Virus record (IMG/VR): IMGVR_UViG_3300044797_000396
Span: 1-64,000 of that record
Origin: a virus
Strand: one strand, 5' to 3'
DNA: 64,000 nucleotides
In this document: piece after piece, positions 35,930 to 62,084 of the stretch
Position numbering within the stretch: position 1 is the first letter of the stretch
Layout of the letters: every line of letters begins with the position of its first letter
The notes under the pieces: generated by a model
Database searches by the model: none
The model's input: the letters and a program-made list of their open reading frames with translations, nothing else
Told to the model about the DNA's origin: nothing
Made by a program: the position numbers and the translations under genes

Positions 35930-36648
35930 ATAAAGTATTGAGTATTATTATTCCAGTTTGGAATAAATCGCACTTCACTAAAACTTGTATTCAAGACTTA
36001 TCTTTACTACCAGCGGATCACGAGATCATTTTAGTTGATAACGGTAGTACTGATGATACTGAAACAATATTCCGAAATCTAAAATTGAAAACTACTGCGC
36101 CTGAGTTTCGATACGTGCGCAATATTACTAATTTAGGTTTTGCTTGTGCCTGTAATATTGGTTATGAGGAAGCTATTGCCCATAATGTTTTGTTCCTTAA
36201 TAATGACATCAAAGTGCGCGATCATTTTACTGATTGGACTAGTTCTTTAATAGAGCATTGTGTTACTTCTTTGGTTGGACCTACCATGGGGCAACTTAAT
36301 AATGAATTGGCCTTTGTCAAAGAAGCCAACCAAGAATTGCCTGGTAAATCCTATATGTCTGGTTGGTGTCTTGCCTCGTCCAAAGAAATATTCAAGAAAT
36401 TGGAAATTCCCAGACCTCTTTGTATCTACGACCACATTCCAGCACCTCAAATATTTTCCGAAGAATTTGGGAAGGCTTATTTTGAGGATACCGACTTATC
36501 TTTCCGAGCCAGACAATTGGGTATTCCATTCAAGGTAGTAAATATTCCAGTGGTTCATTTTGGAAAACAGACCAGCTCGCAACTCAATACACACAAATTA
36601 TATTCCGAAGCTAGGCAAATCTTTATTAAGAAGTGGGCTAAGAAATGA
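35926..36648 (+). CDS. Glycosyltransferase family 2
   Basis: A 240-residue GT-A enzyme. It starts MNKVLSIIIPVWNKS, followed by the nucleotide-sugar site VDNGSTDDT, the metal site FLNNDIKV and a late FEDTDLSFRARQLGIPFKV motif holding the ED catalytic base region. The length is that of a single-domain GT2. The ATG overlaps the previous stop (ATGA), and the end overlaps the next gene, so the two glycosyltransferases are translated together. The acceptor is unknown. Confidence 0.9.
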   Translation: MNKVLSIIIPVWNKSHFTKTCIQDLSLLPADHEIILVDNGSTDDTETIFRNLKLKTTAPEFRYVRNITNLGFACACNIGYEEAIAHNVLFLNNDIKVRDHFTDWTSSLIEHCVTSLVGPTMGQLNNELAFVKEANQELPGKSYMSGWCLASSKEIFKKLEIPRPLCIYDHIPAPQIFSEEFGKAYFEDTDLSFRARQLGIPFKVVNIPVVHFGKQTSSQLNTHKLYSEARQIFIKKWAKK

Positions 36649-36962
36649 AGTATTTTTCGCATGAACTAAGTGATTGGACTTGGTTTGATAGAAATCTTTA
36701 TAGGACAAATGATCAAAAAGGTGACAAGCAGTTTTTGATCGGGTTGGTATGCCTCGATAAACCCAAGCCTATTCAGAATACACATGAGCTTTGGCGAGTA
36801 GATGTTTTAGATTGGGGGGGCAATCTACAGTATCATACTATTTCTTTACTCAAAGAAGCGGGTTTATATCGTAAAGAGTATTCTTATAGCGAATTGGATC
36901 AAGCTAGAAAAGAATTAGATAATTTTATTATTCGAGTTGATAAACTGAAACTATTTATATAG
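36645..36962 (+). CDS. Small protein with KLKLFI C-terminus
   Basis: A 105-residue protein of unknown family, rich in aromatic residues at the N-terminus (HELSDWTWFDRNLYR), with a strand-turn-strand middle (LWRVDVLDWGGNLQYHTISL) and a helical end. The last nine residues, RVDKLKLFI, match the recurrent R-x-x-K-L-K-A-F-[ILVW] ending of seven other small proteins in the window, with A replaced by L. It begins inside the glycosyltransferase stop and precedes the DNA glycosylase by 16 bases. Confidence 0.75.
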   Translation: MKYFSHELSDWTWFDRNLYRTNDQKGDKQFLIGLVCLDKPKPIQNTHELWRVDVLDWGGNLQYHTISLLKEAGLYRKEYSYSELDQARKELDNFIIRVDKLKLFI

Positions 36963-36978
36963 AGAAAGAACGTGTATT

Positions 36979-37818
36979 ATGCCGGAAGGAGTCGAGGTCA
37001 AACTAAGTGCAGAAGTAATTAAGCCATTAGTAAAAGACAAACGAGTTCTCAGTGTTTCATTAGGAGCTAATAGTAGATACAAGTCACAACCTCCTGAGGG
37101 GTTAAATAAGTTTATTGAGGCTACATGTGCTGAAATAATAAAAGTAAATGATGTCCAAACTAAGGGTAAGTTTATGTATTGGACACTATCTCACGATTGG
37201 CATATGTTCTGCACGTTTGGTATGTCTGGTCAATGGAGCCCCAACAAAGGCAAACATCCTTGCTTGGGTATATTTTTGGGCGAAAACCATTTGACACATC
37301 CCGTAGAAAATATTTATTTTAATGATCCGCGCCATTTTGGAACTATCAAATTTACTAATAATCCAAAAGACTTGACAGATAAAATAAAAGAATTAGGTTG
37401 GGATCCATTGCAAATGTTATTATCCAACAATTTACCTTGGATTACGGCTCGGCTTGCAAGAACCAAAAAGCCTATTGCCGAGGTGTTGATGGATCAAAAA
37501 ATCTTTGCTGGCGTTGGCAACTATATAAAATGTGAAGGTCTTTACAGGGCAAAACTTTCCCCATGGAGAGCTAGTCCATCTCTGAATAACGCAGAGATAC
37601 AACTTTTATGTCAGTCTATTGTGGATGTAATGAACGAGTCGTATCAGCATCAGGGTGCCACCATACAAACTTATAAAACTGTGTACGGTGAAGAAGGAAG
37701 ATATTCAACACTTTTCAGGGTGTATGGTAAAAAAGTGGATCCTAATGGAAACAAAATAATTAGCGAAATAACGCCAGATAAGAGGAACACGCATTGGTGT
37801 CCCATTATCCAAAAATAG
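36979..37818 (+). CDS. Formamidopyrimidine/endonuclease VIII-type DNA glycosylase, zincless
   Basis: A 279-residue base-excision glycosylase and AP-lyase. The N-terminus is MPEGVEV, giving the catalytic Pro2 and Glu3 once Met is removed. KGKFMYW holds the conserved lysine, NDPRHFGT is the conserved DPR loop, and IFAGVGNYIKCEGLYRAKLS is the helix-two-turn-helix. The terminal zinc finger is present in outline (TYKTVYGEEG, VYGKKVDPNG, THWCPI), but only one of the four cysteines remains, as in zincless NEIL1-type enzymes. Lying inside a glycosylation cluster is unusual. Repair of oxidised or modified phage DNA is the likely role. Confidence 0.9.
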   Translation: MPEGVEVKLSAEVIKPLVKDKRVLSVSLGANSRYKSQPPEGLNKFIEATCAEIIKVNDVQTKGKFMYWTLSHDWHMFCTFGMSGQWSPNKGKHPCLGIFLGENHLTHPVENIYFNDPRHFGTIKFTNNPKDLTDKIKELGWDPLQMLLSNNLPWITARLARTKKPIAEVLMDQKIFAGVGNYIKCEGLYRAKLSPWRASPSLNNAEIQLLCQSIVDVMNESYQHQGATIQTYKTVYGEEGRYSTLFRVYGKKVDPNGNKIISEITPDKRNTHWCPIIQK

Positions 37819-37828
37819 TGTGCCCATC

Positions 37829-37836
37829 GATATAAT
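37829..37836 (+). promoter_or_regulatory. Candidate promoter -10 box
   Basis: GATATAAT contains a perfect TATAAT (37831-37836). An ATG at 37844 would sit at the expected start site, but its 31-codon frame is not convincing as a gene. A transcript from here would express the membrane protein at 37923. No TTGACA-like box is present 16-18 bases upstream. Confidence 0.33.
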
Positions 37837-37922
37837 AGTGTGTATGAAGAAGCGCACCAGCACAAATATAATTTACAAAATTACCGCTATAACTAGAATT
37901 ATAAAAAAGTTAGGAAACAAAA

Positions 37923-40710: not shown

Positions 40711-40764
40711 ATCTATACCTCAGAAATAAAAATAATAATTCGACCATCTCAAAATTAGACAAGC

Positions 40765-40774: not shown

Positions 40775-40794
40775 CGAACACAAGGAGCATAATA

Positions 40795-42156
40795 ATGCCA
40801 GCTACGAGCACAACCGAACAAGGAACAAAAGAAATAATTACGGACAATGTATCTAATACGGAAATCCGTCATCCAGAAGTAGTAGATCTCGGCAAATTGG
40901 CCGCCCTCAAAGCACAAAGCCAAGCCAAGCAAAATCAGGAGAATAAAATGGCAGCTAAGATAGTGTCAAAGAAAGAACGAAGTATCGTATTAGGGGTACT
41001 AGGATCAGGTCAGGCCGGTTCTAGAATTGCCGAGGCTTTTTACAAACTGGGATACGATGCGGTGGTATGCAACACTTGTATGGCCGATCTAAAATTTTTA
41101 GATATTCCAGATAGTAATAAACTTTTATTGGAGTATGGGGTTGGTGGCGCCAGCAAAGAGTTAGAAATCGGTCGTCAAGCAGCCGAAACTCATAGAGGAG
41201 AAATTTTACAATTAGTGAATGGAAAACTATCGGGATCTCAGGTTAATATTTTGTGTTTTTCTTTGGGCGGTGGATCGGGTGCAGGTTCATGTGAAACATT
41301 AGTAGAAATTATGTCCAACTTAGGTAAGCCGTTGGTGGTCATTACTGTTCTTCCGATGGATACCGATGATGCACAGACGAAATCAAATTCATTAGAAACT
41401 TTATCTAAATTGGCCGCTTTCGCTAGAACGAAAAAAATAAATAATCTTATTGTGATTGATAACGCAAAAATCGAAAGTATTTATCACAATGCCAATCAAT
41501 TTGATTTCTTCAATTTGGCTAATAAATCAATAGTAGAAACTTTCGATTCATTCAACACTATGTCGTCGTTGCCTTCGGCAATCAAAGCTCTTGACCCAAT
41601 GGAATGGTCAAAAATCTTGATGGATGGTGAAGGATTAAGTGTGTATGGTGAATTTATAGTAAATAATTATGTTGAAGATGTGGCTATTGCTCAGGCGGTA
41701 GTGGAAAATCTCAGCAATAATTTGTTGGCAAGTGGTTTTGATCTAAAAGGCGCTAAATATGTTGGATTTATTGTATCCGCCAATAAAGATGTTTGGGCAA
41801 AAATACCTGCGTCTAGCATTAATTATGCAACATCAATGGTTAATGATCTAACGCCAGGAGCTAAAGGCGTATTCAAGGGCATCTATACAGTAGAAAATCA
41901 AGATGATTTCGTTAAAGTGTATTCTTTTTTCTCGGGTCTCTCGTTGCCAACTGCGAGAATTGAGCAACTTAAAAATGACACGCTAGAATTGCAATCCAAA
42001 ATAAAAATTAAGGATGAAGAGCGTAATCTTTCGCTACAGTTAAATGTTGGCTCCAATGAAACAATTAGTGACGCGCAAAAGATTAAAAATAAAATTGCAG
42101 CAAAAAGCTCTACCTTTGGAAAATTTGTAAGTGGAACAGTCGATCGTAGGAAATAA
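40795..42156 (+). CDS. Tubulin/FtsZ-family GTPase
   Basis: A 453-residue phage tubulin-superfamily protein. After a 60-residue charged N-terminal extension come the nucleotide-binding elements: GVLGSGQAGSR (about 67-77, first loop), YGVGGASKELEIGR, and the tubulin signature SLGGGSGAGS (about 146-155), then VVITVLPMDTDD and VIDNAKI. ALDPMEWSKIL fits the FtsZ T7 catalytic loop with Asp and Glu present, so it may hydrolyse GTP as a polymer. The C-terminal domain and a Lys-rich tail follow. Known phage tubulins (PhuZ type) centre or move the phage nucleus or DNA. The ATG has AAGGAG 9 bases upstream. Confidence 0.87.
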   Translation: MPATSTTEQGTKEIITDNVSNTEIRHPEVVDLGKLAALKAQSQAKQNQENKMAAKIVSKKERSIVLGVLGSGQAGSRIAEAFYKLGYDAVVCNTCMADLKFLDIPDSNKLLLEYGVGGASKELEIGRQAAETHRGEILQLVNGKLSGSQVNILCFSLGGGSGAGSCETLVEIMSNLGKPLVVITVLPMDTDDAQTKSNSLETLSKLAAFARTKKINNLIVIDNAKIESIYHNANQFDFFNLANKSIVETFDSFNTMSSLPSAIKALDPMEWSKILMDGEGLSVYGEFIVNNYVEDVAIAQAVVENLSNNLLASGFDLKGAKYVGFIVSANKDVWAKIPASSINYATSMVNDLTPGAKGVFKGIYTVENQDDFVKVYSFFSGLSLPTARIEQLKNDTLELQSKIKIKDEERNLSLQLNVGSNETISDAQKIKNKIAAKSSTFGKFVSGTVDRRK

Positions 42157-42518
42157 TGGTTAAGATACGCGATATTAATTTGTCGTCTTTCACGTATTCA
42201 CAAATCAATAAAAGAGATGATGGCACCATTATTTCCCATTGTGAATTTGTAAAATCTAATATGGTAGCTAATATAGAGGCTTTCCATAACAAAAATTATG
42301 ATCAGTCAGACGCCATCTTTCTGTGTTGTCGAGAGAAGATTGAAAACTCCGATGATTATAGATATACGATGTGCACCATTCCTACAACTGGATATGATGC
42401 CGAAGTAACGAACGTTCGATTAGACAGTTTTAGTAGGCTGCCCACAATTATATTATATAGTAGATCAAACATAGCCGATGTTATAAAAAGAGTATTGAAC
42501 AATCTAATTTTTTCCTAA
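42156..42518 (+). CDS. Small protein, first of a tandem diverged pair
   Basis: A 120-residue protein, unrecognised, whose ATG overlaps the tubulin-like stop (TAATG). It shares with the protein at 42548 a central CxREK motif, YRYTMCTIPTTGYD, LPTIILYS and the ending RVLNNLIFS. Predicted mixed alpha/beta. Translational coupling to the tubulin-like gene suggests a partner or regulator role, but nothing in the sequence proves it. Confidence 0.75.
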   Translation: MVKIRDINLSSFTYSQINKRDDGTIISHCEFVKSNMVANIEAFHNKNYDQSDAIFLCCREKIENSDDYRYTMCTIPTTGYDAEVTNVRLDSFSRLPTIILYSRSNIADVIKRVLNNLIFS

Positions 42519-42547: not shown

Positions 42548-42901
42548 ATGAGAACCGCAACAATAGTTTCTAATCCTTTTCGCCAACATCCCAAAGAGGG
42601 CGAAACCCCTAAAACACCAACCGAGATGATGAAGGCTAGCGTATCTGAAAGTTTGGATGTGTTTGATGGTAACAATCTTGAAACCGCAGACAGGGATTGT
42701 ATTTGTATCTGTGCCCGAGAAAAAACTGAGTTAGGCGAATATCGATACAGCACCATAACCATTCCTACCAAAGAATATTCTACTAACCTAGTCAATGTGG
42801 TGTTAGCTAATTTCAAGAAGATGCCTACTATCATTTTGGATGATAAAGCGGACACCGTAGAAACAGTGCGCAGGGTGCTAACTAATCTTAATTTTTCGTG
42901 A
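42548..42901 (+). CDS. Small protein, second of a tandem diverged pair
   Basis: A 117-residue paralogue of the preceding gene: CICAREKTELGEYRYSTITI, PTKEY, MPTIILDD and the ending RVLTNLNFS align with the first copy, while the N-terminal 35 residues are Pro/Thr-rich and unrelated. The ATG follows GAGAATAAC. It looks like a tandem duplication followed by heavy divergence. No function can be assigned. Confidence 0.75.
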   Translation: MRTATIVSNPFRQHPKEGETPKTPTEMMKASVSESLDVFDGNNLETADRDCICICAREKTELGEYRYSTITIPTKEYSTNLVNVVLANFKKMPTIILDDKADTVETVRRVLTNLNFS

Positions 42902-46166: not shown

Positions 46167-46433
46167 ATGCGTCGATTTTGGAAATTTTTTATCAATGAGA
46201 TAAGTTTTGTTTATCAGAACAAAAAATATGTATTGGAAGTTGGGTATGTCAATACCCATCCAGGATTATATATGAGATTGTATGATCAGGATGGTCAGCG
46301 GCTGGCGGGCAGCTGGGTTTCCAAGGTCGAAGAAAAAGTTAGAGATAGTAGTTTTGATTTTGTGGATAAAAAAATAGTGGATATTTGCGTAGCACAAGCT
46401 CGTCGCATAGAAAAATTGAAAGCATTCGTATGA
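46167..46433 (+). CDS. Small protein with KLKAFV C-terminus
   Basis: An 88-residue protein, unrecognised. The N-terminus is basic/aromatic (RRFWKFFINEISFVYQNKKY), the middle strand-rich, and the last 25 residues helical, ending RIEKLKAFV, part of the recurrent C-terminal peptide. Its last codons carry a purine-rich ribosome site, and its TGA overlaps the next ATG (GTATGA). Function unknown. Confidence 0.75.
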   Translation: MRRFWKFFINEISFVYQNKKYVLEVGYVNTHPGLYMRLYDQDGQRLAGSWVSKVEEKVRDSSFDFVDKKIVDICVAQARRIEKLKAFV

Positions 46434-47035
46434 TAGATAAATTAGAAGAAACAGGCGGGGAACTAACCGCTATTCCCAACGACAAGTATCGTAAGTTCTT
46501 TGACAAGTTTGCCGAGATCGAAACGCTAGATGTTTCGCAGTGGAAAGTGGCACATTTATTGGGCTATTTCTGCAAAAGATACAAGGAAGCATTAGGAACG
46601 GATTATGCTTGGAAGTTCAACAATCCCAGCCCCACCAAATGTTTTGAGGTATGGCAAGCCAATACCCTGGCTGCAAAACTCTCTGCTAATCCTAAAATCC
46701 TCAAAGACTACATTGATTGGGCGTTTGACACTTTGGTTAAGGGTAAGAAATACAAGCCGCGTTCCATTTCCTTCCTCACCAAAGAAGAAGTGGTTATCCC
46801 TTATAAGATGAATGTTTTGTTGGCTGGACAAAGAAACTCCAATGTGGATCGTTCTGCTTCCCTGCCAACTATCTACCAAGATATTCTACAACAAACGGCT
46901 GGTATTACTATTAGCACGTATGGTGATTTAGCTTTTATCTCACAAGCCGAGCCATTACCAGACAACATCATATTAGCGTTGGATCGAATGGTGGAGGCAG
47001 GATTTGATCGAGAAGTATTGAAGAGAATAGTATGA
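46430..47035 (+). CDS. Replication-region protein of unknown function
   Basis: A 201-residue protein. The true start is the ATG at 46430, which overlaps the previous stop; longer in-frame starts run through the upstream gene. Sequence includes YRKFFDKFAEIETLDVSQWK and LLGYFCKRYKEALGTDYAWK in a helical N-terminal half, and KPRSISFLTKEEVVIPYK. It lies among UvsW-like, helicase loader and DnaB-like genes. Helix content and position would suit a replication accessory protein, but no motif supports a specific role. Confidence 0.75.
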   Translation: MIDKLEETGGELTAIPNDKYRKFFDKFAEIETLDVSQWKVAHLLGYFCKRYKEALGTDYAWKFNNPSPTKCFEVWQANTLAAKLSANPKILKDYIDWAFDTLVKGKKYKPRSISFLTKEEVVIPYKMNVLLAGQRNSNVDRSASLPTIYQDILQQTAGITISTYGDLAFISQAEPLPDNIILALDRMVEAGFDREVLKRIV

Positions 47036-47343
47036 TAGTTATTAAAAAACGAAAACTTAATTTTCTTGTGGGTGGCACAAACCCCGGAAGAATGACGCTT
47101 GATGTATTGAAGATATTTCGTCTTCCATACAATCTAACATTTATTCCCGATGAAGATAACATTTTAGAATTTGCTGTTAAACAGGCTCAAAATCTTAATT
47201 GGGATCCTGACACAACTTTGTGTGTCTGGACTAATAAGTCGCCTGCTCCGTATCCGCGTGTCTCTTTGTTTATTAAAGACATGACTGTTGAGAGACTGAT
47301 TAGTGCTACCGATAGAGTGGCAAAATTAAAGGCATTCATATGA
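47032..47343 (+). CDS. Small protein with KLKAFI C-terminus, tandem pair first copy
   Basis: A 103-residue protein whose ATG overlaps the previous stop. It aligns with the next gene: I-x-K-x-R-K at the N-terminus, a central LNWDPDTTL, PRVSLFIKDMTVERLISA and the ending DRVAKLKAFI. Predicted alpha/beta. The terminal codons TTA AAG GCA also form the AAGG ribosome site for the gene downstream. Function unknown. Confidence 0.75.
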   Translation: MIVIKKRKLNFLVGGTNPGRMTLDVLKIFRLPYNLTFIPDEDNILEFAVKQAQNLNWDPDTTLCVWTNKSPAPYPRVSLFIKDMTVERLISATDRVAKLKAFI

Positions 47344-47645
47344 TGATTATTAAGCCAAGAAAATTTCGAGCCCGCACAAAATGGCAGGAACATAGCATAG
47401 GTATATTTGATATTTTAGATGCGCTTCATATCCAACATATTGAGATGGAAGCTCCATATGATATTGATGTTTTAGAAACTTATAAGCAAAATATTTTATC
47501 AATGAATTGGGATATTAATAAAGCCATGGTAATGCCTGTAAAAGCTCCTGGTAGAAGGCGTCTTGCATTGATTATCAATGATATAACTTTTGAGAAACTT
47601 GTGGATGCCATCAATAGGGCGGTAAAATTAAAGGCGTTTTTATGA
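47340..47645 (+). CDS. Small protein with KLKAFL C-terminus, tandem pair second copy
   Basis: A 101-residue paralogue of the preceding gene: IIKPRKFRA at the start, MNWDINKAM, RRLALIINDITFEKLVDAIN and the ending RAVKLKAFL. The N-terminal third has diverged. Start and stop both overlap neighbours as TATGA. It may have arisen by tandem duplication. No function can be assigned. Confidence 0.75.
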   Translation: MMIIKPRKFRARTKWQEHSIGIFDILDALHIQHIEMEAPYDIDVLETYKQNILSMNWDINKAMVMPVKAPGRRRLALIINDITFEKLVDAINRAVKLKAFL

Positions 47646-48813: not shown

Positions 48814-50219
48814 GCTTTAACGCGTTAGATTTAACAGTTCTCAAAAGTATCATTTCCAATAAAAAGCACGGTCTAGATTTCGCCAATGATAGCGATGCTA
48901 AAATCTTTTCTCCCGAAGTATGGAATTTTGCCAATGTAGTAGTGGGATACATCCGCACTCACAAAGAGCTTCCGACCTTACGAGTGATCTCGGAAAAATT
49001 ATCCAAAGGCAATAACGATAAGTTGGTAGAAAATATCAAAATTATCTGGGCGGAATTAGATAAAATTACGGCCAACGAACACGAGTATAAACACGACCTA
49101 GAAAAAGTCAAGCAACGCTTTGCCGAAAAACAACTCCTCAACACACGAGATGCACTGGTCAAGTTAGAGCCGGGCAGCATAGATGTCAATAAGTCCATTC
49201 TAGAATTGCAAAAAACAATTCAATCTGTCAAGTCGTTGCACCAAGTTCGTTCTTATGAACGCAAAACCTTGAAGGAAGCAGTCACTGGCTTCCGTGATGA
49301 ATACAATGCCAAATTGCAAGATCCCAATTTTGACGCTGGTATCCAAACAGGATATTCCTATTTAGACTATGTGACGGGTGGACTACGACCTGGTGAATTA
49401 CTTCTCATTGGTGGTGAGAGCGGATCTGGTAAAAGTATGTTACTGATGAATATGGCTATTCAGATTTGGTTGCAAAATAATAAACCAGAAGTGCAGCCGG
49501 CATATCTACCTGGAAAAAATGTCCTTTATTTTTCATTGGAAATGCCTTTCAAGCCCTGTCTCAACCGCGTGTTAGGAAGACTGTCCTCTAGCCCAACTAA
49601 ACTAATTCGTCAGGCTAAACTTAATCAAATGGACGCAGAAAACCTTAAAAAAGTGCTGAGATTTATTAATGCGTACCCTTATCACTTTGAGATTGTGGAT
49701 ATTCCTCGTGGAGCTACCATAGAAAGTTTGGAGTTGATATATGAGGAAGCCAAGGCCATTTATAATCCTGACATCGTGGTCATCGATTATTTAGGTTTGA
49801 TGGATTATCAAGGAGGCAAAGATTTGGATGATTGGCTGAAACTTGGTAAAATCAGCGAGGCATGCCACGAATTTTCCAGGGTACATAATTGCACCACGTT
49901 AAGCGCAGTGCAACTCAATCGCCCAAAAAGCAACAAAGAAGAGGATAAAATTGGATTGCATCGTATTGGTCGTTCAGGGTTGATTATGACTAATGCTAAT
50001 ATTGCTATTCAAATTGAAAATCGTCATAATGAAAAAAGTTTTCCAGATATGAAGTATCACATAATTAAAATGAGGGATGGTGAGCTTGGTTCTGCCACCC
50101 TCATCAAAGATTTGGCACGAGGTTCTTTGCTCGACAATCCAATAGAAGAAGACACCACTACTTTTGAGCTGCGTGATATAGATGACATATCAGAAAAGAT
50201 CGAGCGACTGGACATATAG
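48810..50219 (+). CDS. DnaB-like replicative DNA helicase
   Basis: A 469-residue RecA-fold helicase. The N-terminal 160 residues are helical; TGYSYLDYVTGGLRPGELLL leads into Walker A GESGSGKS (202-209); YFSLEMPFKPCLNRVLG is the H1a-type segment; DIVVIDYLGLMDY is Walker B and LSAVQLNRP is the H3 segment; SGLIMTNANIAIQI follows. This matches the DnaB/gp41 class. It forms a pair with the loader just upstream (ATGA overlap). A HNH nuclease gene begins exactly at its TAG (TAGTG). Confidence 0.92.
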   Translation: MSFNALDLTVLKSIISNKKHGLDFANDSDAKIFSPEVWNFANVVVGYIRTHKELPTLRVISEKLSKGNNDKLVENIKIIWAELDKITANEHEYKHDLEKVKQRFAEKQLLNTRDALVKLEPGSIDVNKSILELQKTIQSVKSLHQVRSYERKTLKEAVTGFRDEYNAKLQDPNFDAGIQTGYSYLDYVTGGLRPGELLLIGGESGSGKSMLLMNMAIQIWLQNNKPEVQPAYLPGKNVLYFSLEMPFKPCLNRVLGRLSSSPTKLIRQAKLNQMDAENLKKVLRFINAYPYHFEIVDIPRGATIESLELIYEEAKAIYNPDIVVIDYLGLMDYQGGKDLDDWLKLGKISEACHEFSRVHNCTTLSAVQLNRPKSNKEEDKIGLHRIGRSGLIMTNANIAIQIENRHNEKSFPDMKYHIIKMRDGELGSATLIKDLARGSLLDNPIEEDTTTFELRDIDDISEKIERLDI

Positions 50220-50926
50220 TGAAAAAAGTGTGCATTAGATGTGGAGTTGAAAAAGATACAGACAATAGTGATTTTTCCTTCATAAAAAAGACTCAAAAAT
50301 ACGATAACACTTGTAGACAGTGCAACAGAGAATACCAAGAGAACTATCGTGAAGAAAACAAACAAGTATTGTTATCTGATAAAAAACTATACTATCAAAA
50401 TAATAGGGTGAGTATAAGGGCCAAGCAAAAACTCTACAGGCAACAAAATCTTGACGCGTATAAGATACGAGACAAAAAGTATTATGAAAACAATAAGGAT
50501 ACAATAATTTTCAAGAAGCGTGCTTATAAAAAGAAACGACGAGAAACAGACCCAGTTTTCAATTTGAGAAACACGATATCAAGAGCTATAACTTTAATGA
50601 TTTCTTCCCAAGGTGCCATAAAACATAGGAAATCTTGTTTGAAACATCTACCATACACCATTCAAGAATTAAAAGATCACTTGGAAAAACAATTTGAGCC
50701 GTGGATGAATTGGGATAATCACGGAGTATATGTCAGTAATCAGTGGGATAATAATGATTCATCTACTTGGTTTTGGCAGCTTGATCATATTGTGCCGCAA
50801 TCTGACTTGTCTTATTCATCAATGGAAGATGATAATTTTAAGAAGTGTTGGGCATTAGAGAATTTACGACCTCTCAGCGCTAAACAAAACCATCTGGATG
50901 GTGTCAATAGAACGAGACATAAATAA
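50219..50926 (+). CDS. Free-standing HNH endonuclease, copy 2
   Basis: A 235-residue nuclease with a GTG start overlapping the helicase stop. The zinc ribbon is CIRCG and CRQC near residues 5-38; the middle is very basic and Tyr-rich; the C-terminal core is FWQLDHIVPQSDLSY ... WALENLRPLSAKQN. It is a clear paralogue of the gene at 17966, with near-identical blocks such as DDNFKKCWALENLRP. Location next to the conserved helicase gene fits a homing element that favours conserved targets. Confidence 0.88.
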   Translation: MKKVCIRCGVEKDTDNSDFSFIKKTQKYDNTCRQCNREYQENYREENKQVLLSDKKLYYQNNRVSIRAKQKLYRQQNLDAYKIRDKKYYENNKDTIIFKKRAYKKKRRETDPVFNLRNTISRAITLMISSQGAIKHRKSCLKHLPYTIQELKDHLEKQFEPWMNWDNHGVYVSNQWDNNDSSTWFWQLDHIVPQSDLSYSSMEDDNFKKCWALENLRPLSAKQNHLDGVNRTRHK

Positions 50927-50945: not shown

Positions 50946-51122
50946 ATGAAACCAGATGAAGAAGTTGTCGGGGAGGCAGTCAGAGTAGAATATACGGAAC
51001 ACGATGGTAAACTATTTTTAGTCTTTGAGATAACGAACGAAAAATATAAACAAGATATCAAGTTAAATTGGATAAAAGATTTAGAATACAAAATTGTGGA
51101 TAAGTCTTTGGTAAAAAAATGA
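50946..51122 (+). CDS. Small acidic/basic protein of unknown function
   Basis: A 58-residue protein. The ATG at 50946 is preferred because AAGGG lies 6-10 bases upstream; an upstream in-frame GTG would run into the HNH gene. Strand-rich: VVGEAVRVEYTEHDGKLFLV followed by KLNWIKDLEYKIVDKSLVKK. No family recognised. It overlaps the next start. Confidence 0.65.
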   Translation: MKPDEEVVGEAVRVEYTEHDGKLFLVFEITNEKYKQDIKLNWIKDLEYKIVDKSLVKK

Positions 51123-51472
51123 ATGATATAGAATATAACAATCTCATATTGTTGGCAGAAAATTACAAACACATATGCATCAATATGTCCGAATATACTG
51201 GTATAATTACTGGACAATACTGGAAGCTAATGTCTCTAATTACAGAACAAAAAATTATACAAGCTGGTTTATACGGAACTCTTTTTAGCGCCAAACTTTG
51301 GGTGGGAAAACATATTGCCCCTAGTTATGTTTCGGTATCTAATAATGGTACCATAACCAGCATTGAAGAAATATGGTTAAATGAGGAGGAACTTAGTAAG
51401 TGGTCGGATCAGTGCCCACTAAAATTAGCTAACGAGATGGAACGAGCACTGAAACTGAAAGCTTTTTGGTAA
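51119..51472 (+). CDS. Small protein with KLKAFW C-terminus
   Basis: A 117-residue protein of unknown family, N-terminal helix then strands (SYVSVSNNGTITSIEEIWLN) and a terminal helix ending EMERALKLKAFW. The same EMERL-x-K/R-LKAF ending is found in the zinc-ribbon pair at 61564 and 61830. The ATG overlaps the previous stop. The next gene begins one base after the stop. Confidence 0.75.
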   Translation: MNDIEYNNLILLAENYKHICINMSEYTGIITGQYWKLMSLITEQKIIQAGLYGTLFSAKLWVGKHIAPSYVSVSNNGTITSIEEIWLNEEELSKWSDQCPLKLANEMERALKLKAFW

Positions 51473-51882: not shown

Positions 51883-52698
51883 ATGACAATTTTATCTATT
51901 AAAGAAATCCCAATATTGCCTTCTGGCAAATATAAACACAGAGAGATATTATTAAAATGTGATGAGTGTGGAATAGAATATACCAGACCACATAGTAAAA
52001 ATAGGGATTTAAAAAGCGAATTACATTTTTGTTCTAAACGGTGTAGCGATAAATCAATAACTGATGGTGCATTAAGGCAAAAATCAGTTAATACAATGAA
52101 TGTAAAGTATGGCTCGTCATATGTTAAAACTAAAAAATTTAAAGTTGAACGGGAAGAAACATTTTTACGTAAGTACGGGGTTAAAAGTATACTTAATTCT
52201 CCTGAAATAAAACAAAAGATCAGAAAAAGTAATTTAGAAAAGTATGGTCAGGAAGTTTATGCCGGCAGTGATGATTGGGAGTCGAAATTAGATCGTATTG
52301 AAATCGCCCGTAAAGCGTGGCTTACCAAAATTGAAAATGGCACTTGCTCTAAATCGGCTCCTGAGGAAAAATTATTTTTGCTATTAGAAAGTGTTTTTGG
52401 TAAAAGTGATATAAAAAGGCAAGTTCGTGTTATTAGACGGTGGATAGATTTTTATATAATTTCTATAGATTTATATATCCAAGTAGATGGGGTCTATTGG
52501 CACGGGCTCAACAGAAACATTGAGCTAATTAAACTAGGAAAAACATCACAAGATAGGAAAATATATAAACAAATATTAAGAGATCAAAAACTTAATCAAT
52601 ATATGAAAGATAATAATTTTAGGTTAGTCAGATTAACTGATGAACAAATTAAAACTTATTTACCAGAAGATATCATTGCTATATTAAAAGGAACGTAA
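51883..52698 (+). CDS. Homing endonuclease, Vsr-like EDxHD type
   Basis: A 271-residue nuclease. The N-terminus has a zinc module (KCDECG ... FCSKRC), followed by modules of the NUMOD style (NVKYGSSYVKT, KYGVKSILNSPEIKQKI). The C-terminal 110 residues fit the EDxHD fold related to Vsr: Glu in SAPEEKLF, Asp in RWIDFY, His in GVYWHG, Asp in ILRDQKLNQYM, then FRLVRLTDEQI. Base composition is more AT-rich than its neighbours, which suggests separate origin. It interrupts a run of small genes. Confidence 0.82.
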   Translation: MTILSIKEIPILPSGKYKHREILLKCDECGIEYTRPHSKNRDLKSELHFCSKRCSDKSITDGALRQKSVNTMNVKYGSSYVKTKKFKVEREETFLRKYGVKSILNSPEIKQKIRKSNLEKYGQEVYAGSDDWESKLDRIEIARKAWLTKIENGTCSKSAPEEKLFLLLESVFGKSDIKRQVRVIRRWIDFYIISIDLYIQVDGVYWHGLNRNIELIKLGKTSQDRKIYKQILRDQKLNQYMKDNNFRLVRLTDEQIKTYLPEDIIAILKGT

Positions 52699-54158: not shown

Positions 54159-55124
54159 ATGACTTTACTAACGCCCCGAGTTTCTTACGCCCCCTTCGAA
54201 TATCAAAAAGCTTACCAGTACTGGGAACTACAACAACAATCACATTGGCTGCATACCGAAGTATCCATGGCATCCGATATTAATGATTGGAAAATGAAGC
54301 TAAATGAAACAGAAAAAAATATCATCGGACATATTCTAAAAGGTTTTACTCAATCAGAAGTATTCATTCAAGAATATTGGGGGCAAATGGTGGGCAAGTG
54401 GTTTAAGAAGCCAGAAATCCAAATGATGGCTGCCACTTTTTCTTCTTTTGAGAGCATTCATGCCGTCTCTTATGCTTATCTAAATCAGTCATTGGGCATT
54501 GAAGACTTTGAGGCTTTTCTCCATGAACCGACCGCCAAAGCCAAGATTGATCGTTTGATCGCTGCCAAAGGAAAAAGTAAGGAAGAGATTGCTCGTAGTT
54601 TGGCGATCTTTTCTGCTTTCAACGAAGGCGTTAATCTTTTTTCTTCTTTTGCCGTGCTCCTCAACTTCTCTCGATTCAATAAGCTGAAAGGCGTGGGGCA
54701 AATTATTGCTTTCTCTATTAAAGATGAGAGCTTGCACTCCGAAGCTGGCTGTTGGTTATTTAGAACGTTGATTAGCGAGTTTCCTGAGATTATGACCGAT
54801 ACTCTCAAAGAAGAAATTTATGATGCCGCTCGTCTGACCGTAGAGTTAGAAGATGCTTTTATTTCCAAGGCCTTTGAGTATGGCTCCGTGGAAGGATTGG
54901 ATTTTCACGACCTCAAAACTTTTATTCGTTTCCGCACTAATACTAAGTTGGGCGATTTGGGCCTTGGTAAGCTGTGGAAAAATATTGACAAACAAGCTAT
55001 GGAAAGAATGGCGTGGTTTGATATTATGTCAGCTGGCACTTCACATGACGACTTTTTTGCTAGCCGTGTAAATTCATACGCCAAAGGAACTATGGACTTT
55101 TCTCACGTATGGGATGTAGCATGA
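54159..55124 (+). CDS. nrdB: Ribonucleotide reductase small subunit, class I
   Basis: A 321-residue radical-generating subunit. Metal ligands can be read as E67, E98, H101 (FESIHAVSY) and the later KDESLHSEAG pair; Y105 stands four residues after H101, as does the radical Tyr of E. coli NrdB, so a tyrosyl-radical enzyme is likely. The sequence is a little shorter than cellular forms (about 375). The ATG has AGGA upstream. It precedes and overlaps the large-subunit gene, the reverse of the usual A-B order. Confidence 0.93.
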   Translation: MTLLTPRVSYAPFEYQKAYQYWELQQQSHWLHTEVSMASDINDWKMKLNETEKNIIGHILKGFTQSEVFIQEYWGQMVGKWFKKPEIQMMAATFSSFESIHAVSYAYLNQSLGIEDFEAFLHEPTAKAKIDRLIAAKGKSKEEIARSLAIFSAFNEGVNLFSSFAVLLNFSRFNKLKGVGQIIAFSIKDESLHSEAGCWLFRTLISEFPEIMTDTLKEEIYDAARLTVELEDAFISKAFEYGSVEGLDFHDLKTFIRFRTNTKLGDLGLGKLWKNIDKQAMERMAWFDIMSAGTSHDDFFASRVNSYAKGTMDFSHVWDVA

Positions 55125-56815
55125 ACTTGGAAGAGCTAAAACAAGCAGGAGAGGCTCCAAATTGGTTGACAGAAGAAGGATATCGCACATTGAGTGGCGG
55201 CTATTTGCTCACCAACGAAACTCCCCGTCAAATGTACACGCGCATTGCACAAGCAGCCGCTTCTTATTACGAGGACTCTGAGAAATGGCAAGACAAATTC
55301 TTCAATGCGTTGTGGAAGAATTGGTTATGTCCTGCCTCTCCGGTAGCTGCTAATTTAGGTGCGGATCGAGGTCTCCCTATTTCCTGCAATACTGTTCATG
55401 TGGATGATAGTGTTGACTCTATCTTTATGAAGAATTATGAATTTGCTGTTCTCTCTAAAAACGGAGCGGGTGTTGGAATTTACTTTGGGGATATCAGAGG
55501 CAGAGGCACCCCTATCAAAGGCAATGGCGTTAGTGAAGGCGTTATTCCGTGGGCCAAAATATTTGATACAACGACCGTGTCAATCAGTCAAGGAAGTACT
55601 CGTAGAGGTGCTTCGGCTATCTATTTGCCTATTGAGCATCCTGATATTCAGGAATTCATTAATATTAGGCGCCCCACGGGAGACGCCAATCGTAGATGTC
55701 TAAATATTAATCATGGTGTTTGTATTAGTGATGCTTGGATGCAATCTATGCAAGCTGGTGATAAAGAGAAACGACAAATTTGGATGGAAATCTTGAAGGC
55801 TCGCGTGGAAACCGGTGAACCTTATTTGTTTTTTACTGATAATGTTAATAACAATAACCCAGAGTGTTATGTCAAAAATAATCTAACGGTCAAGAGTTCT
55901 AATATTTGTTCAGAAATTACTTTACATACTGATCCTAATCACAGTTTTGTATGTTGCTTATCTTCCCTTAACCTAGTGCGTTGGGAAGAATGGAGAGAGA
56001 CAGATACCGTCAATGTGGCAGTCAGATTTTTAGATGCGGTGTTGTCAGAATACATTAAGAAGACGGAACATATTAAAGGTATGGAAGCTTCCCGAGCCTC
56101 CGCTATCAAGGGTAGGGCTATTGGTCTGGGTGTTCTGGGCTGGCATACTATGTTGCAGGAGAAGGGTATTGCTTTTGAGAGCTTCGATGCTATGCAGTTG
56201 AACGCTCAAATCTTTCGTTCCATTCGTGCCAAAGCAGAAGAAGAAACTAAATTGTTAGCGGAAGAGTTGGGAGAGCCAGAGTGGTGTCAAGGGTTCGGTA
56301 GACGCAATACCCACCTATTGTCCGTGGCTCCAACAGTTTCTAATTCTACTATTTCGGGAGGCCATAGCGCGGGTATCGAGCCGATCTCCGCTAACGTTTT
56401 TACTCAGAAGTCAGCTAAGGGTACTTTTATTCGCAAAAATATTACTTTGGAAAAGCTATTGGCCACCAAAGAAAAAAATACTCCCGAGGTTTGGAAGTCT
56501 ATTAATGAGCAAAATGGTAGTGTTCAGCACCTTTCCTGCTTGACAGAGCAGGAAAAGCAAGTCTTTCTAACAGCTCGTGAAATCAATCAGTTTGCCGTTA
56601 TCAAATTAGCAGTACAGCGACAGAAGTGGATTGATCAAGCACAGTCAGTTAATTTATTTTTTGCCATGAACTCTGACCCTAAATATATACACGAAGTACA
56701 TATTGCAGCCTGGAAAGGCGGATTAAAGACACTATACTATTTCCGTAGTGATGGTGTAATCAAGAGTGATTTAGCTTCTAGAAGTGAAGATGATTGTAAA
56801 GCTTGTGAGGCCTAA
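55121..56815 (+). CDS. nrdA: Ribonucleotide reductase large subunit, class I, no ATP-cone
   Basis: A 564-residue catalytic subunit reducing ribonucleotides for phage DNA synthesis. ATG 55121 overlaps the nrdB stop (ATGA); an ATG 12 bases earlier is possible. Key residues: C89 (PISCN) and C278 or C279 as the redox pair, N261-C263-E265 (NICSE) as the active site, the YY pair in LKTLYYF for radical transfer, and the C-terminal C559-x-x-C562. It lacks the N-terminal ATP-cone of about 100 residues, so dATP activity control is absent, and it is much shorter than E. coli NrdA (about 760). Confidence 0.92.
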   Translation: MNLEELKQAGEAPNWLTEEGYRTLSGGYLLTNETPRQMYTRIAQAAASYYEDSEKWQDKFFNALWKNWLCPASPVAANLGADRGLPISCNTVHVDDSVDSIFMKNYEFAVLSKNGAGVGIYFGDIRGRGTPIKGNGVSEGVIPWAKIFDTTTVSISQGSTRRGASAIYLPIEHPDIQEFINIRRPTGDANRRCLNINHGVCISDAWMQSMQAGDKEKRQIWMEILKARVETGEPYLFFTDNVNNNNPECYVKNNLTVKSSNICSEITLHTDPNHSFVCCLSSLNLVRWEEWRETDTVNVAVRFLDAVLSEYIKKTEHIKGMEASRASAIKGRAIGLGVLGWHTMLQEKGIAFESFDAMQLNAQIFRSIRAKAEEETKLLAEELGEPEWCQGFGRRNTHLLSVAPTVSNSTISGGHSAGIEPISANVFTQKSAKGTFIRKNITLEKLLATKEKNTPEVWKSINEQNGSVQHLSCLTEQEKQVFLTAREINQFAVIKLAVQRQKWIDQAQSVNLFFAMNSDPKYIHEVHIAAWKGGLKTLYYFRSDGVIKSDLASRSEDDCKACEA

Positions 56816-56839: not shown

Positions 56840-57241
56840 ATGAAAGGTACAATACTTCTCAGTCATGATGAGGACACCCACCGAATAGAGGAGGAAGAAA
56901 AAGCACGTTTTATTCGAGGATTTCTAGAACAATGTTTCGAAGGCGCCCCCGAAGTAGCTGCCCAAATTAACTCAATTTGGAATGTGGATGGGCCTTTGCC
57001 AGCTTCCCAAAAAGTAAAATTGAGAGGCCTTCTCACCACCTTTGGTATCCAAATTATAGATAATCTTGATGGGCACATGCAGATATATTTAGAAAATGAA
57101 CTGCAAGCTGAATGGTTCAAGTGTACTTACAAATTGAAAAAAGATCTACGTGTTATTGATCCACGCAAGCGTATTTACCTTGAAATGGAAGTAAGTTGTT
57201 GGAGCGTATTCGATTCACCAGAAGAAAAACAAGAGACCTAA
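56840..57241 (+). CDS. Unrecognised protein after nrdA
   Basis: A 133-residue protein. The N-terminal half is acidic and helical (DEDTHRIEEEEKARFIRGFL), then a Pro-Leu-Pro loop, a helix (QKVKLRGLLTTFGIQIIDNL) and strands (HMQIYLENELQAEW, RIYLEMEVSCWSVF). No family recognised. The stop codon overlaps the ATG of the following homing-type nuclease (TAATG). Confidence 0.72.
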   Translation: MKGTILLSHDEDTHRIEEEEKARFIRGFLEQCFEGAPEVAAQINSIWNVDGPLPASQKVKLRGLLTTFGIQIIDNLDGHMQIYLENELQAEWFKCTYKLKKDLRVIDPRKRIYLEMEVSCWSVFDSPEEKQET

Positions 57242-58158
57242 TGAGAAAAAGAAGGCCAAATTTTACTACAGAAAGTTTCGTGCGTGAGTCGATGATAATT
57301 CACGGTAATGTTTATGATTATTCTTTAACTAAATTTATGGCAATCAAAAAACCTGTTGAAATTATTTGTGATAAACACGGAGTATTTACGCAGAGCCCCG
57401 AAGTTCATCTAAGGGGACATGGTTGTTTTAATTGTGGAATAGAAAAAACCGCCAATCACATTAAAAGTAATTCTCAATCGTTCATCGAAAAATCAATCCA
57501 AATACATGGAAATTTATATTTATATGAATTGGTTGATTATTCAAATAACAATAAAGCAGTAAAAATAATTTGCAGATCACATGGTGAATTTTCGCAGACT
57601 CCAGCCTCACATTTAGTTGGAAGAGGCTGCCCACATTGTGCAAAGGAAAAAATCAACAAAGATAAGCTGCTCACTCTAGAAGAGTTTGTTGCCAGATCTA
57701 AATCTATTCATAATGATAAATACAGTTATGATGAGGTAATTTACCAAACTGAAGATATTCCGGTAATTATTATATGTAAAGTGCATGGTAAATTTTTACA
57801 AACGCCAAGGGTGCATTTACGAGGATCAGGTTGTCGCAAATGTGTAGGAACTATCTCTAAAATGGAAACTATGTGGCTTGATAGTCTAAATGTTGATTTA
57901 GATAATAGGCAAAAGACCCTGAAAATAGGGGATAAACGTTTTTTAGTAGACGCTTATGATCCTACTACAGATACCATTTATGAATTTTATGGTGACTATT
58001 GGCATGGTAATCCTGAGGTATATGCTCCACAAAAAATTAACGCAATAAATAAAAAGACTTTTGAAGAATTATATTGTAAGACAATTGAGAAAGAAAGCAC
58101 TCTAAAAAATGCTGGTTATAATGTAATTAGCATTTGGGAAAGCGATTTCAATGCCTAA
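57241..58158 (+). CDS. Homing endonuclease with three zinc repeats and EDxHD domain
   Basis: A 305-residue nuclease with an ATG at 57241 overlapping the previous stop. Three repeats of about 60 residues each end in a zinc knuckle: HLRGHGCFNCG, HLVGRGCPHC, HLRGSGCRKC, each preceded by IIC-x-x-HG and a FxQTP/FTQSP strand, the DUF723-like DNA-binding unit. The C-terminal 110 residues hold an EDxHD nuclease: KMETMW, FLVDAYD, YWHGNPE and a later acidic residue, then NVISIWESDF. It lies between two unrelated phage genes; a selfish element is most likely. Confidence 0.82.
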   Translation: MRKRRPNFTTESFVRESMIIHGNVYDYSLTKFMAIKKPVEIICDKHGVFTQSPEVHLRGHGCFNCGIEKTANHIKSNSQSFIEKSIQIHGNLYLYELVDYSNNNKAVKIICRSHGEFSQTPASHLVGRGCPHCAKEKINKDKLLTLEEFVARSKSIHNDKYSYDEVIYQTEDIPVIIICKVHGKFLQTPRVHLRGSGCRKCVGTISKMETMWLDSLNVDLDNRQKTLKIGDKRFLVDAYDPTTDTIYEFYGDYWHGNPEVYAPQKINAINKKTFEELYCKTIEKESTLKNAGYNVISIWESDFNA

Positions 58159-59461: not shown

Positions 59462-59470
59462 GGAGTTTTC

Positions 59471-60114: not shown

Positions 60115-60123
60115 GTCAAAACC

Positions 60124-60933
60124 ATGAGAACGAACATTCCCAAAGGATCGTTCAGCGATAATAATTTAGTGCGTCTCAAAAATGAAGATTGGTTGCAAAA
60201 ACAAAGGGTTGCTGGCAAAATTGCTGCTAGCGCCCTTTTGCTATTGGACAACGAAGTCAAGCAAGGTACCACTAAAACATTATTAGAGTTGGACAAATTA
60301 GCAGAAACTTACATTAGAGATAATGGTGGTATACCTACTTTTTTGATGTATAAAGGATTTCCCAATTCTGTTTGTGTAAGCGTGAATAAACAATTAGTTC
60401 ACGGTATACCTACCGATTATGTTTTGCAAGAAGGGGACATAGTTAGTTTTGATCTAGGAGTGACGGTTGAAGGAGGAGCTATTGCCGATACTGCTATTAC
60501 TTGCCTTTTTGGTAAGCCTAAATCAGAAAAACATATTCAGTTAATCAAAGATACAGAAGAAGCCTTGATGCGTGGTATTCGAGCTATTAAGGTGGGCGAT
60601 AGGCTAGGTGTTATTGGAGAGGCTATTTATAAATATAGCCGTAAACATAATTATGGGGTCATCAATAATTATGGTGGTCATGGCTTAGATTGGAATATTC
60701 CGCACGCCTCGCCATTTGTGGAAAACAAATCAGATCATACCAAGGGAATGAGAATTCAACCAGGACTTACCATAGCCATCGAACCAATGTTTACCTTAGG
60801 TTCTACCACCACTACCACCGCCGAGGATGGTTGGACGGTGGTAACGCCCGATCTGAGTGCGCACTTTGAGCATTCTATTTTTGTCCACGACACTCATGTA
60901 GAGATTATTACTGATAGGAGTAATTTGTGCTAA
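60124..60933 (+). CDS. map: Methionine aminopeptidase, type I-like
   Basis: A 269-residue metalloprotease that removes N-terminal Met from new proteins. The pita-bread fold is clear: H93 (LVHGIP), D110 (FDLG), D122 (GAIADTA), the H in GGHGLDWNIPH, E in AIEPMF and E in HFEHSI make the full set of metal and catalytic residues. The length matches bacterial MetAP (about 264). It carries no SH3 or zinc N-terminal extension. Finding an intact enzyme in a phage is unusual. The next gene starts at GTG inside its end. Confidence 0.93.
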   Translation: MRTNIPKGSFSDNNLVRLKNEDWLQKQRVAGKIAASALLLLDNEVKQGTTKTLLELDKLAETYIRDNGGIPTFLMYKGFPNSVCVSVNKQLVHGIPTDYVLQEGDIVSFDLGVTVEGGAIADTAITCLFGKPKSEKHIQLIKDTEEALMRGIRAIKVGDRLGVIGEAIYKYSRKHNYGVINNYGGHGLDWNIPHASPFVENKSDHTKGMRIQPGLTIAIEPMFTLGSTTTTTAEDGWTVVTPDLSAHFEHSIFVHDTHVEIITDRSNLC

Positions 60934-61184
60934 CTATTCGAGATTGTAATATAAGTATGAGCGCGGCTCGCCAAGATCCTCTGATCTCTGAAGAAGACAA
61001 TGGTGATATTATTCTAGATAAACTTATAATTCACGATCTGGATTACGTTATACGGCTAGAACAAGAATTCGGTGTCAAACTAAAGTTCAAGCTAATGTTG
61101 GCGGTGGATGAGCCGGGCGGTCCCACTGGCTATTATGATGAAAATGATATTCGCAAGGTATTAAGCAACAAGGCGTTTTGGTGA
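60927..61184 (+). CDS. Small acidic protein, GTG start, ending KAFW
   Basis: An 85-residue protein. GTG at 60927 has AGGAG six bases upstream and overlaps the aminopeptidase end; the first internal ATG is ten codons later with no such site. Sequence includes DIILDKLIIHDLDYVIRLEQ, KLKFKLMLAVDE and the ending IRKVLSNKAFW, close to the recurrent KLKAF tail. Function unknown. Confidence 0.7.
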   Translation: MLTIRDCNISMSAARQDPLISEEDNGDIILDKLIIHDLDYVIRLEQEFGVKLKFKLMLAVDEPGGPTGYYDENDIRKVLSNKAFW

Positions 61185-61188
61185 TTAA

Positions 61189-61404
61189 ATGAGTGTCGTA
61201 ATCGCAGATGTAGCTGATAGTAATATCCTTCTAATTGCTGATGGTATTTCCAAAGGAATATCAGAGAAAGAAATAATTGAGGCGTATATTATCGTTGGGT
61301 TCGGGATGGCGGATATTACACTATTATTAGCGGCCGCAAAATTACTATGCACGGATCGTAAAAACGTTCAACCCACCAAAAAATTATTTAAGAGGGTAGT
61401 ATGA
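61189..61404 (+). CDS. Small hydrophobic helical protein
   Basis: A 71-residue protein, mainly helical: SNILLIADGISKGISEKEII, AYIIVGFGMADITLLLAAAK. The second helix is fairly hydrophobic but broken by Asp and Thr, so a membrane location is uncertain. The stop overlaps the next ATG (GTATGA). No family recognised. Confidence 0.65.
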   Translation: MSVVIADVADSNILLIADGISKGISEKEIIEAYIIVGFGMADITLLLAAAKLLCTDRKNVQPTKKLFKRVV

Positions 61405-61577
61405 AAATAATTTTCGAGGATAAATCATTTGTGGAGTGCGCCAAATCCAATACCCCTGGCAAAGTAGTTATTACTATTAGTGCGAAAGATGGCACAGACC
61501 CCCTTAAAAAAATTATCAATGCCGTAGAGATTACCGAAAAAGAATTCCAAAGACTGATTAGCGATGTCCAAGCCTAA
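61401..61577 (+). CDS. 58-residue small protein
   Basis: A short frame with ATG overlapping the previous stop and its own end overlapping the next gene by 14 bases. It has strands (MKIIFEDKSFVEC, GKVVITISAK) and a terminal helix (EITEKEFQRLISDVQA). The layout resembles the small proteins that end in KLKAF, without that tail. Position and coupling support it as a true gene. Confidence 0.6.
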   Translation: MKIIFEDKSFVECAKSNTPGKVVITISAKDGTDPLKKIINAVEITEKEFQRLISDVQA

Positions 61578-61833
61578 AAACTCAATCTGCCCAATGTGCA
61601 AAGAATGGATGATTGATTGGGCAGATGGTAGCCAGTGTGGACAGTGTGGTATTGTATATTGGTCAGCATCAAGCATTGAAGCTCAAATAGGCATTAGGTC
61701 TTCCAATACAAAATCGGAATGGTCGCAGATACCTTTACCTGTCGATCAGCCATATTATTATTTTATAGAGCACGAAAAATTTTATACCGTCTCAGAGATG
61801 GAAAGATTATGTCGTCTGAAAGCATTCCTATGA
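61564..61833 (+). CDS. Zinc-ribbon protein with KLKAF-type tail, pair first copy
   Basis: An 89-residue protein with two knuckles, CPMC (9-12 region) and CGQCGIVYWS, a variable middle, then DQPYYYFIEHEKFYTVSEME and the ending RLCRLKAFL. It aligns closely with the next gene. The TGA overlaps the following ATG (CTATGA). The N-terminal ribbon and C-terminal helix could be two separate functional modules. Function unknown. Confidence 0.78.
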   Translation: MSKPKNSICPMCKEWMIDWADGSQCGQCGIVYWSASSIEAQIGIRSSNTKSEWSQIPLPVDQPYYYFIEHEKFYTVSEMERLCRLKAFL

Positions 61834-62084
61834 ACCATATCTGCCCTATGTGTAAGCAAGAAATGGATGTGGCCGGTCGATGTATGAAATGTGATATCAT
61901 ATACTGGTCACTTGAAGAGCTGGAAGAATTACAAAGTAAAAATGGTGATATCTTTGCTACTGAGCCGTGGTCAAAAATACGTCTCAATCCCATCGATCAA
62001 TCATATTATTATTTTTTTAAACACGGAAAATTTTATACCGTTCCAGAAATGGAACGTCTTACAAAATTGAAGGCATTTCTATGA
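61830..62084 (+). CDS. Zinc-ribbon protein with KLKAF tail, pair second copy
   Basis: An 84-residue paralogue of the preceding gene: ICPMCKQEMDV, CMKCDIIYWS, DQSYYYFFKHGKFYTVPEME and the ending RLTKLKAFL. The true start is the ATG at 61830, which overlaps the previous stop; longer readings run into the upstream gene in another frame. Its final codons give the GAAGG ribosome site for the kinase-like gene. Confidence 0.78.
   Translation: MNHICPMCKQEMDVAGRCMKCDIIYWSLEELEELQSKNGDIFATEPWSKIRLNPIDQSYYYFFKHGKFYTVPEMERLTKLKAFL

Follow-up and report, generated by a model that had tools for sequence, protein, structure and literature searches.

A short C-terminal peptide shared by many small, unrelated proteins in one clade of huge phages

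The recurrence of almost the same peptide at the extreme C-terminus of small proteins with unrelated bodies raises the question of what this end is for and what maintains it. The case comes from a window of 64,000 nucleotides, bases 1 to 64,000 of the 90,550-bp IMG/VR virus record IMGVR_UViG_3300044797_000396 (103 proteins; G000 in the counts below), in which an earlier note had described eight such proteins. We favour the explanation, with a probability of roughly 0.6, that this tail is a docking or targeting tag read in trans by a common receptor, with cargo-type sorting as the leading version. Trans recognition seems the best explanation because the peptide keeps its C-terminal place while the soluble proteins that bear it are unrelated and rapidly replaced.

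All eight C-termini are present in the window (Table 1), and the tail is always terminal, as the note had claimed: every LKAF in the window's open reading frames (ORFs) of at least 30 residues lies one residue before the C-terminus. Apart from the two related pairs marked in Table 1, the window bodies gave no mutual phmmer match. The last tailed gene probably starts at 61830, overlapping the preceding stop. The number eight itself was an undercount, as at least ten more tails lie in the remaining 26 kb of the record. Across the whole record, the strict pattern [LMI][KR][AS]F[LIVW] ends 12 proteins and occurs once internally, against 0.002–0.003 expected ends from composition or internal occurrences. 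Among C-terminal tripeptides, KAF at -4 is the most frequent, with 13 proteins; no tripeptide of Myxococcus phage Mx1 exceeds three.

The core proteins of the record have largely syntenic homologues, mostly at 45–85% identity, in seven contigs: G009 (481 kb), G010 (448 kb), G018 (394 kb), G016 (359 kb) and the smaller G019 (210 kb), G001 (55 kb) and G005 (48 kb). This makes the record a piece of a huge-phage genome. The core set compared includes baseplate-like giants, a DnaB-type helicase, a helicase loader, ribonucleotide reductase (RNR), a PhoH-like protein, an FtsZ/PhuZ-like tubulin, and a sigma-like protein; helicase and tubulin are named from family matches, the others from homologue annotation or inspection of the sequence. 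No named phage matched window positions 36000–60000 by megablast.

Within this clade, the tail has the consensus [KR](-9)-Phi(-8)-x-K(-6)-L(-5)-x-[AVST](-3)-F(-2)-[LISTW](-1), Phi being hydrophobic, with F at -2 in 97% of the tails, L at -5 in 70% and a hydrophobic residue at -8 in 93%. We built a position-specific scoring matrix (PSSM) of the last ten residues, trained on G000, G001, G010, and G018 with MORN-like proteins left out, and took expectations from internal 10-mers. It matched 119 of 765 proteins in G010 (up to about one protein in six), 69 of 620 in G018 and 20 of 103 in G000; outside the training genomes, it matched 40 of 630 in G022, 30 of 702 in G009 and 6 of 507 in G033, with at most 0.2 expected in each of the six. 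A chance origin is ruled out by these observed and expected counts. The simplest statistic agrees: F stands at -2 in 16–25% of all proteins of G000, G001, G003, G010, and G018, versus a background of about 4%, the level seen in the tail-poor relative G033. A second subtype, E[KR][LIV]K[TL][LY]xxF[SAT], is clustered at 400–415 kb of G009 and also occurs in G019 and G001. The motif is thus broader than first described, and KLKAF[LIVW] is one subtype of it.

In the named phages and bacterial genomes checked, nothing exceeds chance. The PSSM matched none of the 1,083 ORFs of Mx1, nothing in 200 kb of Atu_ph07 or 100 kb of phiKZ, and one protein in 100 kb of phage G. The tail pattern gave zero matches in Atu_ph07, Phosso, phiKZ, T4, and Mx1 and one in phage G, compared with 20 in G003, 18 in G010, 9 in G001, 7 in G009, and 6 in G018 as whole records; the reversed pattern matched once over all 21 records. 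DNA scans of IMG/VR found KLKAFL before a stop (with R upstream) in 12 stretches and KLKAFW before a stop in 70, strongly clustered in few contigs. Among 84,980 bacterial and archaeal species, R-x-x-KLKAFW before a stop has 13 matches, about the chance level, one of which ends a possible ORF. Neither the tail nor a whole tailed protein found anything convincing in named phages by tblastn, and searches of the open-licence PubMed Central (PMC) library found no paper with KLKAFW or HREDGPA and no account of a comparable tail from jumbo or huge phages. The tail is restricted to one clade of huge phages.

Two loci show variants of the end. In the 48810/52700 slot of G018 (L136), a protein ends in LKMKAFW-NE, the tail extended by two residues, which may be a tag that was lost or altered. 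In L129, five tandem small paralogues end in DPKLKAFA/T variants, with a small rather than hydrophobic residue at -1.

The proteins that carry the tail are diverse, small, and mostly lineage-specific. Compared without their last 12 residues (phmmer E<1e-3), the 247 non-redundant tailed proteins give about 112 body clusters, a count to be read knowing that single-sequence searches can miss remote homology and that the loose pattern takes in some chance members. The largest cluster is a MORN-like family of HREDGPA repeats (33 members in G003), followed by several CxxC zinc-ribbon families. The MORN-like genes form dense paralogue arrays in G003 (L110–L114, 33 tailed) and G004 (L181–L182, 16 tailed), where nearly all members end in KLKAFW or KLKALW. 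Carriers are nearly all shorter than 220 residues (only 2 of 119 reach that length in G010), and 30 of the 50 G010 proteins with an N-terminal CxxC are tailed. The tail is found on 99 of 376 G010 proteins without homologues in the other four large genomes versus 3 of 146 universal ones. A transmembrane-like stretch occurs in 0 of 251 tailed proteins versus 91 of 1,843 other small proteins. Searches of PHROGs and Pfam with the tested KLKAF bodies gave no convincing family, the MORN-like repeats giving a sub-threshold match to DUF6745; among longer candidates with different F-x ends, a few matched PHROGs of no assigned function. A search of PDB folds with the MORN-like model returned weak matches at best, some of them to MORN proteins.

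These genes occupy fixed places while changing identity. Five core-gene gaps that hold tailed genes in the window also hold tailed genes in relatives, usually without detectable homology to the window occupants: tailed genes stand in the slot of 36645..36962 in G010 and G022, and in that of 60927..61184 in G001, G005, G010, G018, and G022. The gap 46385–47642 is closed in nine genomes or contigs, where the core genes overlap by 4 bp, and holds paired tailed genes in G000, G001, G010, G018, G022, and L200. Contigs L010 and L011, whose tubulin gene is 73% identical, are without the window's tailed genes. With the same slots holding varying tailed occupants or none, the tailed genes thus act like cassettes that can be swapped. 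Several genes near the variable slots (Table 1) look like endonucleases of the HNH, GIY-YIG, and other types, by their sequence and homologues, and may help to move the cassettes.

Table 1. Tailed genes and other features of the window, of the rest of the record, and of related contigs (positions of the record unless a contig is named).
Feature	Location	Coordinates	Strand	C-terminus	Remarks
105-aa protein	window	36645..36962	+	RVDKLKLFI	tail codons 36930-36959; PSSM score 15.4
FtsZ/PhuZ-like tubulin	window	40795-42156	+
120-aa protein	window	42156..42518	+	KRVLNNLIFS	FS subtype; PSSM score 11.1
117-aa protein	window	42548..42901	+	RRVLTNLNFS	weak FS subtype; PSSM score 7.2, at threshold
88-aa protein	window	46167..46433	+	RIEKLKAFV	tail codons 46401-46430
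103-aa protein	window	47032..47343	+	RVAKLKAFI	paralogue of 47340..47645
101-aa protein	window	47340..47645	+	RAVKLKAFL	paralogue of 47032..47343
Endonuclease-like gene	window	50219-50926
117-aa protein	window	51119..51472	+	RALKLKAFW	stop TAA; no overlap with next gene
Endonuclease-like gene	window	51883-52698
Sigma-factor-like gene	window	53447
RNR genes	window	54159-56815	+
Endonuclease-like gene	window	57196-58158
85-aa protein	window	60927..61184	+	RKVLSNKAFW
89-aa zinc-ribbon-like protein	window	61564..61833	+	RLCRLKAFL	pair with 61830..62084
84-aa zinc-ribbon-like protein	window	61830..62084	+	RLTKLKAFL	pair with 61564..61833; listed ORF start 61719
Endonuclease-like gene	rest of record	69321-69557
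Tailed gene	rest of record	71723-72091	+
Four consecutive tailed genes	rest of record	75557-76558	-
FS/A-subtype tail	rest of record	76214-76558		[LIV]xFS/A
Endonuclease-like gene	rest of record	77620-78339
Two tailed genes	rest of record	80069-80538	-
Two tailed genes	rest of record	81853-82578	-
FS/A-subtype tail	rest of record	87180-87833		[LIV]xFS/A
Tailed gene	rest of record	87830-88345	-
Endonuclease-like gene	rest of record	89055-89912
FS/A-subtype tail	rest of record	89909-90550		[LIV]xFS/A
ClpP-like tandem pair	L145	7779-8946	-
ClpP-like tandem pair	L160	1802-2981	+
Protein with extended tail	L136	6309-6569	-	LKMKAFW-NE
Five tandem paralogues	L129	5650-6713	-	DPKLKAFA/T

Conservation of the end is seen in the peptide. 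The note had described synonymous codon variation and read it as selection on the protein; both points hold, as all tail codons vary synonymously, the tail persists, intact or degenerate, in homologues and slot-mates from relatives, and in tail-rich genomes it is C-terminal, not internal. The G005 homologue of 46167..46433 is 31% identical and ends in RMEKMKAFT, and that of 51119..51472 is 24.6% identical and ends in RVLQLKAFW. Among homologue pairs with body identity below 45% (MORN-like proteins excluded), the last nine residues are 70% identical versus 23% in non-tailed controls, a biased comparison, since possession of a tail was the criterion for entering the set. A homologue search blind to the tail returned 139 tailed proteins and 49 that appear tail-less, many of the latter ending in degenerate forms such as KLTAFL, KISAFA, KLQALW, or KMKAFT.

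The note had also suggested that the codons might partly serve the next gene, as a ribosome site and an ATGA start-stop overlap; a related idea makes them a recombination site for cassettes. The overlap exists in 43 of 185 strict tails, codons with a final A are common at -1, and ATGA junctions often host cassettes. However, 52 of the 185 lack an ATG gene on the same strand within 15 nt, every codon varies synonymously, AAA outnumbers AAG threefold at -4, the W subtype ends in TGG, which is incompatible with ATGA, and gene 75557 is tailed although its downstream neighbour is convergent. As a cause, the ribosome site and overlap are largely refuted by the synonymous variation and by the tails without a downstream gene, and the recombination site is rejected because the tail codons vary synonymously; we regard a nucleotide-level origin as hardly credible. 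The ribosome-site part is at most a side effect, which may account for the commonness of TTA, CTA, and ATA at -1.

The residue pattern upstream of the end (hydrophobic at -15, -12, -11, -8, and -5; acidic at -16; basic at -9, -6, and -4; no G or P from -15 onward) indicates an amphipathic helix. AlphaFold2 predicts a folded body with a loose tip in both proteins modelled. In a MORN-like tailed protein (44 sequences), the best model has a mean predicted local distance difference test (pLDDT) of 94, the other four reaching 74–76, with a helix at 58–69 and then a loose FW end; in the window zinc-ribbon protein 61830..62084 (17 sequences), pLDDT is 80, with a helix at 71–81 and a loose AFL end. 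In both, the final two or three residues fall outside the helix at low confidence. One could then suppose that the tail acts in cis, as the end of a C-terminal helix packed on a body whose carriers share a remote fold or ancestor and have otherwise diverged. The helix signature does span -16 to -3, several families consist of a beta-hairpin followed by the tail helix, and remote homology can escape single-sequence searches. The bodies, however, include clearly different folds (CxxC zinc ribbons, MORN-like repeats), the predicted helix does not include the most conserved residues, and packing would not demand an exact C-terminal position. MORN-like proteins of Atu_ph07 have a similar terminal helix without the tail; therefore the fold does not need it. 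Such a cis role appears quite improbable. A membrane-targeting helix of the MinD or FtsA type would fit the basic and hydrophobic character of the C-terminal helix, but residue order is conserved (F at -2, L at -5 at the frequencies given above), whereas the sequence of membrane helices varies freely, and the FS subtype is weakly basic at its end; we consider this very improbable.

We thus return to recognition in trans. In our proposal, a short amphipathic helix (about -16 to -4) would present the free C-terminus ...K-L-x-[AVST]-F-[L/I/W/S/T] to a common receptor that reads it. The tag would mark an extensive and rapidly changing repertoire of small, soluble accessory proteins (zinc ribbons, MORN-like repeats, and many lineage-specific proteins), whose genes enter and leave as cassettes at fixed slots between core genes. 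In the leading version, it would bring this hypervariable set to one place, as a cargo or sorting tag. We infer the receptor, the single destination, and its identity from the features described above. Of the roles offered by the earlier note (targeting, docking, or degradation), the general type is thus the leading explanation, and no specific form of it is supported.

Several known systems resemble this arrangement in part. Encapsulin cargo-loading peptides are C-terminal and common to unrelated cargo of an HK97-fold shell, and the tail is likewise a C-terminal peptide on unrelated proteins, with a different sequence. The closest precedent is the capsid-targeting sequence (CTS) of T4, which is N-terminal, sits on a handful of proteins and directs them to one place. 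The internal proteins of T-even phages are highly diverse, with the capsid-targeting sequence alone conserved (PMC3012670). Like them, the tailed proteins are diverse small accessory proteins with one short terminal peptide in common (across about 112 body clusters), but the tail is C-terminal rather than N-terminal, unrelated in sequence, and present on up to 119 proteins. Sliding-clamp motifs (PIP box) have h-x-x-F-h spacing and are sometimes at the extreme C-terminus. The tail is similarly spaced, but it lacks the initial Q of Q-x-x-h-x-x-F-h, its -8 position is hydrophobic, and core proteins, among them the replication proteins, rarely carry it (the 3 of 146 universal G010 proteins). Poxvirus ankyrin/F-box (PRANC) proteins combine a variable repeat body with a short constant C-terminal docking element in many paralogues. 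They share the variable body and constant end, but they serve the eukaryotic ubiquitin system, and have no sequence relation to the tail; the tailed bodies span many families.

Protein import into a phage nucleus, as in Chimalliviridae, would correspond to the phage compartment proposed earlier, and the clade keeps the FtsZ/PhuZ-like tubulin (Pfam Tubulin 2.6e-13, PHROG PhuZ 2.8e-9); shell and RNA polymerase genes were not searched. This version found no direct support: the nucleus-forming phiKZ has no such tails, and the clade has a sigma-factor-like gene, judged from sequence only.

Docking to a Clp-type protease is the main rival. The tail would be a C-degron that times removal, or the constant docking end of adaptors whose variable bodies catch host proteins for a ClpX-like unfoldase. 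ClpX C-degrons (ssrA and MuA type) and the SspB tail are short basic and hydrophobic C-terminal peptides, and ClpX reads a free C-terminus, as the tail would require. The tail shares this composition, with a different sequence, and the carriers resemble small binding modules more than enzymes. The clade encodes a tandem ClpP-like pair (Table 1); in one member the usual catalytic-serine motif seems to be missing (ClpR-like). ClpP, or the adaptor ClpS, is known from jumbo phages (PMC7824862). The pair, however, is present in all five large genomes compared, including the tail-poor G033, so that ClpP presence does not track tail number, and Mx1 has a ClpP-like gene and no tails. We judge protease docking unlikely.

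Other observations, together with the bias of the tail-identity comparison, weigh against the docking or targeting tag. A search for the receptor by phyletic profile left 26 families shared by four tail-richer genomes and missing in G033, none of which stands out. Variation at -1 and in the FS subtype may point to two or more receptors. The 119 tagged proteins of the richest genome far exceed the few internal proteins of T4. T4 internal proteins are lysine-rich; unlike them, the bodies of tailed proteins have a slightly acidic character in three of four genomes.

Other features of the clade lie beside this argument. The RNR genes of the window are 76% and 67% identical to those of Mx1, which is the best named-phage match at 67%, and almost nothing else is common to the two phages; gene transfer is likely, and these genes are perhaps a hint at the host. 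A promoter-like motif, GATATATAG, precedes structural genes and stands in the window at 1277, 13887, and 30425. Another, TTCCCATTTA (G018, L131–L133), stands 20–40 bp before some 30 genes of a zone whose genes are small and untailed.

A more ambitious form of the docking explanation, which we put forward tentatively and at somewhat less than even odds, is a proteome-wide address code of this clade, in which one dedicated receptor would serve an ever-renewed arsenal drawn from more than 100 sequence clusters and exchanged as slot cassettes. It is a comparably tentative step that the fixed partner is a single machine (virion loading, a protease, or another assembly) into which binding modules plug. 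Most genes of huge phages have no known function or homologues. Here, a single sequence feature groups roughly a quarter of the lineage-specific G010 proteins (99 of 376) into one class, gives a handle on otherwise featureless proteins, and could help to list candidates for accessory or counter-defence functions elsewhere in the clade. Should the receptor be the capsid, a protease, or a host hub, the tail would show how a phage renews its accessory proteins while their docking end stays fixed; if the address code is real, it would give prokaryotic viruses a counterpart of modular adaptor arsenals.

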